Shown piece after piece: positions 54,303 to 60,451 of a stretch of DNA of 64,000 nucleotides. The stretch covers positions 1 through 64,000 of the forward strand of contig JANXCQ010000004.1 of the NCBI GenBank assembly GCA_025060195.1, written 5' to 3'. Origin of the DNA: Gemmatales bacterium (lineage in GTDB: Bacteria; Planctomycetota; Planctomycetia; Gemmatales; HRBIN36). Both the position numbers and the translations under genes were made by a program. Numbering within the stretch: the stretch's first letter is position 1; each line of letters starts with the position of its first letter. The notes beneath the pieces were generated by a model. It did not search any database. It worked only from the letters and a program-made list of their open reading frames with translations, and had not been told where the DNA came from.

Positions 54303-54902
54303 TTAGGTCGAGTTGAGTTTCGCTTCGGGCGATTCCTCCTCGGACGGGGATTTACTCACGACGACCCGTGCGGGGCGGAGCACGCGGTCATGATAATAAT
54401 AGCCCGCTTCGAGGACCTTGATCACGGTATTTGGCGGGTGCTCGGCGCTGGGTTGCTGCAGGACAGCCTGATGCAAATGAGGGTCAAAAGGCTGGCCTTG
54501 CGCTTCCATAAGAGTGATGCCGTGCTTTTTGAGAAGGTTCTGTAATTGGTTATAAATCATGACCACGCCTTGTCGTAGAGGCGAATCTTCTTGAACGGAG
54601 TCCAAAGCTCGTTGCAGATTATCAAGCACGCTGAGCAAATCGAGCGCTAACGGCCAAAGGGCATAGCGGCGCTCTTGGTCGCGTTCTTTAGCGATGCGTT
54701 TCTGGTAATTTTCGAAATCGGCCCGCGTCCGTAACAGAAGTTCTTTGAAAGTATCGCGTTCGCGCATCAGTTGTTCTAAGTCGGCCAACACCTGAGACGC
54801 AGCGGCATTATCTTGTACGGCCGATTCGGGCGCTGCTGTTTCTGGCGCCGCCGTGGTTTCGCTGGTCTGGGGCTGAGCACTGGAAGTCGGCTCTTCACTC
54901 AT
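54303..54902 (-). CDS. grpE: Nucleotide exchange factor GrpE
   Basis: GrpE swaps ADP for ATP on DnaK. The 199-residue protein has an acidic, Ala/Pro-rich N-terminal tail, a long helix with FKELLLRTRADFENYQKRIA, LLSVLDNLQRALDS, LKKHGITLMEAQGQPFDPHL and a beta domain with VLEAGYYYHDRVLRPARVVV. The order is standard. No dnaK gene is in the window although grpE and dnaJ are. It follows fmdB by 59 bases and is probably in the same transcript. Confidence 0.93.
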   Translation of the reverse strand: MSEEPTSSAQPQTSETTAAPETAAPESAVQDNAAASQVLADLEQLMRERDTFKELLLRTRADFENYQKRIAKERDQERRYALWPLALDLLSVLDNLQRALDSVQEDSPLRQGVVMIYNQLQNLLKKHGITLMEAQGQPFDPHLHQAVLQQPSAEHPPNTVIKVLEAGYYYHDRVLRPARVVVSKSPSEEESPEAKLNST

Positions 54903-54961: not shown

Positions 54962-55237
54962 CTAGTTTTTCGAGCCGTCCGATTTGCAGGCGCAACTATC
55001 GGTACCGCAGCCAGCCTGTTCAAGTTCTTTCTTAGCTGCGGCTTTGTACGACTCGCTACGGTAATCGGTTATGTAGAATCCCGAACCTTTAAAAATCAAC
55101 CCTGCTCCCGCACCGAAGAGCCGACGTAAACGCGGTTGCTGGCACTTCGGACAATCGCGGAGCGGCTCTGCTGTAATCGGTTGCAATTCCTCGAAGGTAT
55201 ATTCGCAAGCTTCACAGACATACTCATACGTAGGCAT
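54962..55237 (-). CDS. FmdB-type zinc ribbon protein
   Basis: The 91-residue protein starts MPTYEYVCEACEYTFEELQP, with two CxxC pairs (CEAC and CPKC) of the FmdB regulatory-like family. GLIFKGSGFYITDYR and a basic C-terminal end with CGTDSCAC follow. GGAGGAGAGGCC before ATG 55237 is a good ribosome site. The frame runs upstream to 55330 but without family sequence. FmdB proteins are small zinc proteins whose role is not clear; some lie near chaperone and heat-shock genes as here. Confidence 0.88.
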   Translation of the reverse strand: MPTYEYVCEACEYTFEELQPITAEPLRDCPKCQQPRLRRLFGAGAGLIFKGSGFYITDYRSESYKAAAKKELEQAGCGTDSCACKSDGSKN

Positions 55238-55376
55238 GGCCTCTCCTCCATTTCGCCACAAGAGTTTCGTGAGTGCCTGGCTAAGCTGCCATCGGTCTGT
55301 CCACGGAATATCGTGAATCGCTTGGGTCAAGATGGCTTGCTCATACGATTTAGTACAGGCTCCGTGCTAGTTTCAG

Positions 55377-56588
<1,212 letters not shown>

Positions 56589-56689: not shown

Positions 56690-58309
56690 TTAATGTACTG
56701 CGCCTTCAACCTTCGGCTTATCAGCCTCTTCTTCGATACGAGTCACCAACACCTCTGTGGTGAGCATAAGTCCCGCGATGCTGGCCGCGTTTTGCAGGGC
56801 CGTGCGTACGACCTTCGTGGGATCAATGATGCCGGCTTTAAACATGTCCACGTATTGACCGGTGTTGGCATCGAACCCGATATTGGGGTCATCCTGTTCA
56901 AGCACTTCCTGGGCAACGACAGCGCCATCTCGGCCAGTGTTCTCGGCAATTTTGCGAATGGGTTCTTCCAAGGCACGCAGGACGATCTCCGCACCGTACT
57001 TTTCGTCGCCTTCGAGTTTCTTGGCCAGTTTCTGAACTGCGTCCTTGCAACGCAACAGAGCTACACCACCTCCGGGCAGGATACCTTCTTCAACCGCAGC
57101 GCGGGTAGCATGAAGCGCGTCTTCGACGCGGGCTTTTCGCTCTTTCATTTCCGTTTCAGTGGCCGCTCCCACCTTGATGATGGCCACACCTCCCGTTAAT
57201 TTCGCCAACCGCTCGCTGAACTTTTCTTTGTCGTATTCGCTTTCGGTTTGCTCCATTTGGGTGCGAATTTGCTCAATGCGTTTCTGAATATCCTGCTTTT
57301 TTCCTTTACCGCCGATGATGGTGCAACTTTCTTTCTCGACGCGGACACGTTCACATTGACCGAGCTGCTTCGTGGTAACGTTCTCTAACTTGATGCCCAA
57401 GTCTTCGCTGATGAGTTGACCGCCCGTAAGCACCGCAATGTCGCCGAGAATTGCCTTACGTCGGTCACCGAAACCGGGAGCTTTGACGGCGCAGCACTGC
57501 AAAACGCCCCGCAGCTTATTCACTACCAAAGTGGCCAACGCTTCACCTTCTACGTCCTCGGCGATCACTAGCAAGGCTCGACCTTCCTGGGCCACACGTT
57601 CAAGCAACGGTAACAAGTCGCGCACATTGCTGATTTTCTTCTCGTAAATCAGGATGTACGGATTCTCCAGTTCACAGCGCATGGTGGAAGGATCGGTGAT
57701 GAAATAAGGCGAAATATAACCCTTATCGAACTGCATCCCTTCTACAAATTCAACAGTGGTTTCGGCGCCCTTACCCTCCTCAACTTGAATGACGCCGTCC
57801 TTACCCACCCGCTCCACGGCATCGGCAAGCATTTGCCCAATTCGCATATCGTTATTGGCGCTGATGGCACCCACCTGAGCAATCTCGTCTTTGCGCGTAA
57901 CCTTCCGCGACATTTTCTCCAGTTGGCTGACGGCCGCCTCCACGGCCTGGTCAATGCCCCGCTTCAGGCTCATGGGGTTAGCGCCAGCGGTGGTATGCTT
58001 CAGCCCTTCCTTATAAATAGCTAGCGCTAGAATGGTTGCTGTGGTGGTGCCGTCGCCGGCGACATCACTGGTTTTCTGGGCCACTGCGTTTACCAGCTTG
58101 GCTCCCATGTTCTCGAATGGATCAGGTAGGTCAACCTCCTTGCTGACGGTGACTCCATCTTTCGTGACGGTGGGGTTACCGAAAGTCTTCTCAATAATCA
58201 CGGTGTGCCCTGTGGGACCAAGCGTACACCCAACGGCTTTCGCCAGTTTCTCCGCCCCAGCAAGGAGTTTTTTCCTAGCTTCATCACTGAACATCAGTTG
58301 TTTAGCCAT
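56690..58309 (-). CDS. groEL: Chaperonin GroEL, second copy, divergent
   Basis: The 539-residue protein is a group I chaperonin. [31 protein letters not shown] and [11 protein letters not shown] show the nucleotide site with TLGP, KDG and DGTTT kept. Instead of the usual LGPKGRNV it has LGPTGHTV, so the basic residues after the first loop are lost. [18 protein letters not shown] and [11 protein letters not shown] follow. The tail ends KPKVEGAVH, without the GGM repeats of classical GroEL. I chose ATG 58309, with GAAGGAGAGGG upstream. Compared with the first copy the sequence is clearly different, suggesting a specialised role. It has its own leader with a long inverted repeat. Confidence 0.94.
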
Positions 58310-58357
58310 ATCCCTCTCCTTCGCAAGTATTGTCTCGATTTGTATGGAAATACCCCA

Positions 58358-58423
58358 AGCACTCGGTAGCTCTGCAAATATCTCTTGGCCATGCAGAGGT
58401 ACCCAGTGCTCGGCACTATAGTA
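58358..58423 (-). promoter_or_regulatory. Promoter-like site and long inverted repeat before the second groEL
   Basis: Arms of 19 bases (58358-58376 and 58392-58410) pair at 17 of 19 positions, around a 15-base loop. The outer half-sites read AGCACTC and CAGTGCT, like those of CIRCE (TTAGCACTC and GAGTGCTAA), but the spacing is much longer than the 9 bases of CIRCE. A TACTAT -10-like box lies at 58418-58423 just upstream on the minus strand, so transcription would start near the repeat's edge. The repeat ends 49 bases before the groEL ATG. HrcA control is an inference. Confidence 0.5.
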
Positions 58424-58501
58424 CAAAAGTCACTTTGAGATTTTCCACTTGCCCACTCGAGGTCGGAGCGAATCTATTCGCGTGCGAAAGATATAGGAGC
58501 A

Positions 58502-58792
58502 CTACTTGATGACTTTGGCGAGGATATCGCTTTCGCGCATGATTTTGTATTCCTTGCCGTCGATCTTCACGTCGCTGCCAGCATATTTGCTGAAAATCAC
58601 CTCATCGCCGACGGCCACGTTCATGGCTGCACGTGTGCCATCTTCGAGCAACTTCCCGGGACCGACAGCGATGACCTTACCCCGTTGCGGCTTTTCTTGG
58701 GCCGTGTCGGGAAGGACGATGCCGCCGGGAGTCCGCTCCTCGGATTGCATGGGTTCAATTACCACACGATCATCTAAGGGTCGCAGTTTCAT
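58502..58792 (-). CDS. groES: Co-chaperonin GroES
   Basis: GroES caps the GroEL ring. The 96-residue protein has the standard start [13 protein letters not shown], the mobile loop with [27 protein letters not shown] and [17 protein letters not shown]. It lies 25 bases after the first groEL and 192 bases before the second groEL, so it is sandwiched between two copies. One GroES probably serves both. A ribosome site, AGGAGGC, lies just before the ATG. Confidence 0.96.
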
Positions 58793-58816: not shown

Positions 58817-60451
58817 TTAGAACTCATCCATGTGCTCATCATGGTGTCGGGATTCTTCCTTCTCTTTTTTCGGGATATCCGCGACCAGCGTTTCCGTAGT
58901 CAATAATAAGCAGGCAACGCTGGCACCATTTTGCAAAGCACAGCGGGTGACTTTCACAGGGTCAACAATTCCCGCTTTCCGCAGATCAGTGTATTTCAGT
59001 TGCAGAGCATCGAAGCCCCAGGTTTTTTCCTTGGCCTTGCGCACCTCATTGACGACAACCGACCCGTCCAATCCCGCATTCTCGGCAATGGCGCGACACG
59101 GGACCTCCAAAACTTCCTTGAGCAACTCCACGCCCACTTGCTCATCGCCTTCTAACTGCAACTTATCTAGCGCCCGAGCCGCATGTACCAATGCCACACC
59201 TCCGCCCGGCAAGATACCTTCTTCCAAAGCCGCGCGTGTGGCACTGAGGGCGTCTTCATACAACGCCTTGCGCTCTTTCATTTCCGTTTCGGTGGCGGCA
59301 CCGACCTTGATCACGGCCACGCCGCCTGACAACTTCGCCAGCCGCTCTTGCAACTTTTCGCGGTCGTATTCGCTGTCGGTCTTCTCGATTTCCTGCCGAA
59401 TCTGCTGACAGCGTCCCTCAATAGCCTCACGCTTCCCTGCCCCTTCAATGATGGTGGTGTTTTCCGAATCTACTCGAACTTTCTTGGCCTGACCCAGGTC
59501 GGTCAGTTTCACATTCTCCAGCTGAATTCCGAGGTCTTTGAAGATGGCCTTCCCCCCGGTGAGAATAGCGATGTCTTCGAGCATCGCCTTGCGACGGTCG
59601 CCGTAACCTGGTGCCTTCACAGCGCAGCATTCGACAATTCCCCGCAACTTGTTCACCACTAGGGTGGCCAGCGCTTCGCCTTCTACATCTTCCGCAATAA
59701 TTAGCAACGGGCGCTTAGCTTTTGACACTGCTTCCAGTAACGGAATCAATGGCCGTGCAGAGGAGATTTTGTCTTCGTAAATCAGGATATAAGGCTTCTC
59801 TAACTCACAGATAACCTCGTCCTGATTGGTGATGAAATGGGGCGAGAGGTAGCCGCGGTCAAATTGCATACCCTCGACCCACTCCACTTCCGTTGTAATC
59901 CCTTTGCCTTCCTCGATCGTAATCACGCCATCGGTGCCCACGCGTTCCAGGGCCTCTGCGATCCGTTCTCCAATCTCCGAGTTGTTGTTAGCGGCGATGG
60001 TGGCTACTTCGCGTATTTCCTTCTTGTTCTTGATATCAATCTTCTCGGCCATTTTTCTTAGTTCAGCCACCACTGCATCTACCGCCTTGTGAATGCCCCG
60101 ACTCATGGCCATGGGATCTACGCCGGCAGCAACGCGACGTAGTCCCTCGCGAAAGATAGCCTCAGCTAATACAGTGGCCGTGGTCGTGCCGTCGCCTGCG
60201 ACATCGCTCGTCTTGCTGGCGGCTTCCTTGACCAACTGCGCGCCCATGTTCTCGTAGGGGTCTTCTAACTCGATGTCCTCGGCTACGGTGACGCCGTCCT
60301 TCGTAATGTTCGGCGCGCCCCAACCTTTATCCAATACGGCGTTGCGTCCTCGCGGTCCGAGGGTACTTTTCACCGCCCGGGACAGCTTTGTCACACCGCT
60401 AAGCAGTTTTTGTCGTGCTTCATCACCGTAGGCCAATTGCTTAGCGCCCAT
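58817..60451 (-). CDS. groEL: Chaperonin GroEL, first copy
   Basis: The 544-residue protein is a canonical group I chaperonin: [75 protein letters not shown] and [23 protein letters not shown]-site residues are complete. The end is HHDEHMDEF rather than the GGM tail. GAGAGGAGG lies before the ATG. The gene comes first in the cluster, before groES, which is the opposite of the usual groES-groEL order. It probably serves as the housekeeping chaperonin because it keeps the common sequence motifs; that is an inference. Confidence 0.96.

Follow-up and report, generated by a model that had tools for sequence, protein, structure and literature searches.

Segal and Ron reportedly described, in 1995, a heat-shock-dependent cleavage of the mRNA of the groESL operon of Agrobacterium. 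In other operons, malE-malF, puf and papBA, intercistronic structures offer precedents for the punctuation of an mRNA (PMC5927463). Palindromes of another kind, the dispersed families of the REP type, occur in Planctomycetes (PMC3733652). In Rhodopirellula baltica, the genes RB8966 (Cpn60), RB8969 (Cpn10), RB8970 (GroEL), RB8972 (DnaJ) and RB8974 (GrpE) are induced by heat, and the authors of that study saw no regulation of rpoH, rpoE or rpoN (PMC2754498).

Here, we describe a hairpin located between groES and a second groEL gene, which probably serves as punctuation in a chaperone mRNA and not as a binding site for HrcA. The RNA-hairpin reading is the probable one, and it places the structure in an already known class, the intercistronic mRNA structures. 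The locus is of interest for the spacer between groES and groEL2, where palindromes unrelated to each other recur in a group in which HrcA was not detected.

A strong inverted repeat between groES and groEL2

The minus strand of the 64-kb window (the whole stretch of DNA analysed) carries a presumed chaperone operon in which the genes follow each other in the order groEL1 (Cpn60; 58817..60451, Pfam PF00118), groES (Cpn10; 58502..58792, PF00166), a spacer of 192 nt (58310..58501), groEL2 (Cpn60; 56690..58309, recognized by PF00118 and by its translation), dnaJ (55377..56564; PF00226, PF01556 and PF00684), a small zinc-ribbon gene (54962..55330; PF09723) and grpE (54303..54902; PF01025). The cluster looks homologous to the RB8966-RB8974 cluster of R. 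baltica. A third groEL gene is present elsewhere in the same genome (C33:14521-16107, L179), and its product is about 65% identical to GroEL2. Our search for a proteobacterial RpoH returned general sigma-70 relatives only, all of them under the cut-off, and thus brought up no heat-shock regulator.

The spacer contains an inverted repeat with two 19-base arms (58358-58376 and 58392-58410), complementary at 17 of 19 positions and separated by a loop of 15 bases (58377-58391); both the coordinates and the match count of the first-pass annotation of this DNA were reproduced. Counting the pairs that flank the arms and a single G-U pair, the stem in the sense RNA spans 59 nt (58355..58413, minus strand) and comprises 20 base pairs and two 1x1 mismatches, with CCGAGCACTGGGTACCTCTGCA as the 5' arm (58392..58413) and TGCAGAGCTACCGAGTGCTTGG as the 3' arm (58355..58376) on either side of the 15-nt loop. 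On its upstream side, 88 nt separate the stem from the groES stop, and downstream 45 nt separate it from the groEL2 start; the ribosome site of groEL2 falls outside it.

We confirmed that this inverted repeat is real and exceeds chance, as a stable stem between co-directional genes of the presumed operon. The energy of the sense hairpin is -33.4 kcal/mol (shuffle mean -15.1, z = -6.9), and none of 1000 dinucleotide shuffles was equally stable. Its stem score of 13 was not reached by any of 400 shuffles (mean 6.4, maximum 11). The repeat ranks first within the window and, by stem score, first among the 233 intergenic regions found in about 450 kb of its own genome, a background obtained with a simple gene-caller and an ungapped stem score made for the purpose. 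When the same regions are ranked by local RNA folding energy alone, the hairpin comes second. The most stable 64-nt local fold of the 233 (-43.6 kcal/mol) is that of C71:126175-126472, which also sits between co-directional genes. A genome-wide search found the repeat sequence in one copy, ruling out a dispersed repeat in its own genome, and the Rfam covariance models gave only sub-threshold, irrelevant matches.

HrcA, promoter, thermometer and terminator readings

The outer 7-mers of the repeat, AGCACTC and CAGTGCT, do resemble half-sites of CIRCE, the operator of HrcA, as the first-pass annotation had pointed out. It gave their separation as 39-41 bases; we measured 39, and the spacing in CIRCE is 9. 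This resemblance would suit a stretched CIRCE operator, or the operator of another dimeric DNA-binding protein. However, profile searches for HrcA (PF01628), a check that the annotation had itself suggested for this genome, found the protein neither in the own genome nor in 61 genomes of the order nor in 249 of the class, under conditions in which it was detected in 7 of 14 control genomes. Sites resembling CIRCE with at most two mismatches were no more frequent than expected by chance, numbering 138 where the reversed pattern gave 129, and the 64-kb window holds zero sites with at most three mismatches to the full consensus. Moreover, the half-site bases GCACT/AGTGC have become GCGCT/AGCGC in a relative of the same genus. 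With no HrcA, chance-level CIRCE sites and half-sites that are not kept, the proposal of an HrcA operator is ruled out. The repeat found at this place in another genome of the family (G003) is unrelated in sequence, which also counts against an operator, and we regard the operator reading as a whole as highly improbable.

The same annotation had placed a likely transcription start, with a TACTAT box just upstream, right at the repeat, and had suggested that the second GroEL may be controlled separately from the first. The box exists (58418..58423, read from 58423 to 58418 on the minus strand), and its placement would put a start at the base of the stem, which could then be the 5'-end hairpin that stabilizes a separate groEL2 transcript. 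Against this, no -35-like hexamer is found 15-19 bases upstream of the box, no promoter match was called at the spacer, and the same-genus relative has no such box. Thus the TACTAT box is probably not a promoter, control of groEL2 from its own start finds no support, and a separate transcript beginning there seems improbable to us. In the relative, the place of the box is occupied by an additional stem, small and perfect (GGGGGCA...TGCCCCC), which lies directly upstream of the main one (spacer L087 / L158:13061-13355).

Another way to control groEL2 would be an RNA thermometer, in which its ribosome site stays hidden until heat opens the structure. In the own genome, the AGGA of the ribosome site can indeed pair with the spacer's 5' end, but this pairing is no greater than in shuffled spacers, it is not kept in G003, and modelled heating from 37 to 70 °C does not open it. 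The hairpin proper does not cover the ribosome site. As the modelled accessibility of this site did not vary over that temperature range and was no different from that in shuffles, the thermometer was rejected, and we give it hardly any credence.

The sequence past the stem, GGTATTTCCATAC, contains no U-run, and the minus strand gave no intrinsic-terminator match at the hairpin. An intrinsic terminator, which combines a G+C-rich stem with a trailing U-run, was rejected since the U-run is absent. A partial terminator, or attenuator, would allow only some polymerases to stop at the hairpin, leaving less groEL2-dnaJ-grpE mRNA than groEL1-groES mRNA. The very stable stem with co-directional genes on both sides would be compatible with such a role. 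So would the distribution of long palindromes in 12-14 regions of 15-20 kb from Gemmataceae (L163-L177); these palindromes are commonest between convergent genes (9 of 19), followed by co-directional (27 of 128) and divergent ones (3 of 29; p = 0.006), the order expected if some of them act at 3' ends. In contrast, the lack of both a U-run and a terminator match speaks against attenuation, and a loop of 15 with a stem of 20 is unlike a common terminator; we consider an attenuator unlikely. As the stem neither includes the ribosome site nor is followed by a U-run, processing or protection of the mRNA fits better than masking or intrinsic termination. With no promoter supported and a ribosome site that is not specially hidden, intercistronic punctuation remains the best reading.

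Occurrence in the genus, family and order

In the same-genus relative (G001), the spacer at the same place is 295 nt long, its main stem has arms of 20 and a loop of 17, and it ranks first among the 126 intergenic regions of the sample from that genome. MAFFT, which is blind to structure, set the two 5' arms in register, and the 3' arms are also in register once a two-base difference in loop length is allowed. At 17 of 22 stem positions the two genomes share a base pair; among these 17 pairs, 9 are unchanged, 1 is changed on one side and 7 are changed on both sides. Between the genomes there is also a loss of three pairs and a gain of two. The arms are identical at 23 of 44 bases, by itself a modest likeness, which was reached by 42 of 20,000 pair-order shuffles. 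The four-fold degenerate sites of groEL2 are 31% identical, which corresponds to synonymous saturation; at such divergence, neutral sequence should no longer show a likeness of this kind. These compensatory changes suggest a structure kept by pairing, in what is one comparison between two genomes of a genus. They favor the RNA hairpin that the first-pass annotation had offered as its alternative.

Paired changes may also have another origin. Template switching within quasi-palindromes can yield them without selection, and this could explain those seen here if the repeat were a neutral palindrome with no role, produced by hairpin-templated mutation or left over from a dispersed palindromic element. 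Neutrality would agree with the dispersed palindrome families known from relatives in the sister family, one of which occupies the groES-groEL2 spacer, and with the lack of a hairpin in four members of the own family. By contrast, the repeat is present in a single copy in its genome, its position has been kept across synonymous saturation, its mismatches have been retained instead of corrected, and the same place ranks first in three genomes of the family. On balance, we doubt that the palindrome is neutral.

The third of these genomes is G003, where the spacer carries the strongest of 94 intergenic repeats, as it does in the own genome and in G001; its arms measure 29. The spacer repeat of G005 ranks 94th of 131, and the spacers of G002, G004 and G006 are 42-54 nt long and have no stem. 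In the search of relatives that the annotation had proposed as a check, the stem is kept within the genus and missing from four of the seven family members, so the hairpin is not essential to the operon.

Among 50 genomes of Gemmatales, 36 had a groES-groEL2 spacer of at least 60 nt, and in 22 of these 36 the spacer held a stem beyond all 60 shuffles. Outside Gemmatales the count was 4 of 36, no significant enrichment. Genomes of the sister family are rich in palindromes throughout, and these include at least one dispersed kind, whose 13-mer has 329 copies in G028 (control 1) and none in the own genome. The palindrome family with GCTTAGCGCTCGC, exemplified by the L111, L112 and L107 spacers, occurs 329, 220 and 82 times in G028, G045 and G059 (control 1 each). 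One copy lies inside the groES-groEL2 spacer of G028 and one inside that of G045, and other Gemmataceae have different repeat types there. Spacers of 60-130 nt in the groE operons of the sister family carried a palindrome in 12 of 25 cases, against 5 of 36 other co-directional spacers in the same length range (p = 0.008), an enrichment from small samples of related genomes that we treat as a lead only.

A strand-asymmetry test on 25 stems from across the order revealed no bias between G-U and A-C mismatches (27 vs 24) and gives no ground for ascribing an RNA role to the palindromes of the order as a whole. Our search of the literature on Gemmata palindromes found nothing relevant. We tentatively propose, as a possibility short of an expectation, that the groES-groEL2 spacer of Gemmatales repeatedly acquires a hairpin of any sequence and retains it as a punctuation of the mRNA that does not depend on sequence. 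In these bacteria, which lack HrcA, the hairpin would uncouple the second GroEL from GroES. Such hairpins would either evolve in place or be dispersed palindromes captured by the spacer.

Proposed punctuation of the chaperone mRNA and known systems

Our model is that the repeat forms an intercistronic hairpin of a co-transcribed groEL1-groES-groEL2-dnaJ-grpE mRNA, and that processing and the stability of the resulting segments set their relative levels, a reading to which we assign a probability of about one half. Co-transcription, cleavage and an effect on stability are all steps that we infer. The stem would protect the upstream groEL1-groES segment from 3'-5' decay, mark a place of cleavage, or do both; cleavage would leave groEL2-dnaJ-grpE with a structured 5' end of its own. 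As a consequence, the two segments would be present at different levels. The genome encodes RNase III and an RNase of the E/G type.

HrcA turned up in none of the 249 genomes of the class that were searched. For the setting of several GroELs against the GroES next to them, a conserved hairpin at this joint in the operon is a concrete, testable candidate for a post-transcriptional control point. The recurrence of unrelated palindromes at this joint would, if confirmed, be a clear case of structure selected without sequence.

Compared with the CIRCE/HrcA operator, the repeat shares a half-site-like AGCACTC and an inverted symmetry adjoining a groEL gene, and it differs in the spacing of 39 instead of 9, in bases that are not conserved and in belonging to a class without HrcA. 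Like the REP-type palindromes it is intergenic, and Gemmataceae relatives carry such families in this very spacer; unlike them, it is not found in many copies. The groESL operon of Agrobacterium is likewise a groE operon, with mRNA processing that has reportedly been proposed. That operon belongs to an alphaproteobacterium with HrcA and RpoH, whereas here HrcA is absent, cleavage is only postulated, and two groEL genes flank groES. The malE-malF, puf and papBA structures resemble the hairpin in being strong hairpins in a polycistronic spacer with the ribosome site outside, and the types of nuclease they need are encoded in this genome; they differ in operon and phylum, and the hairpin described here is known from its sequence, which is unconserved beyond the genus.
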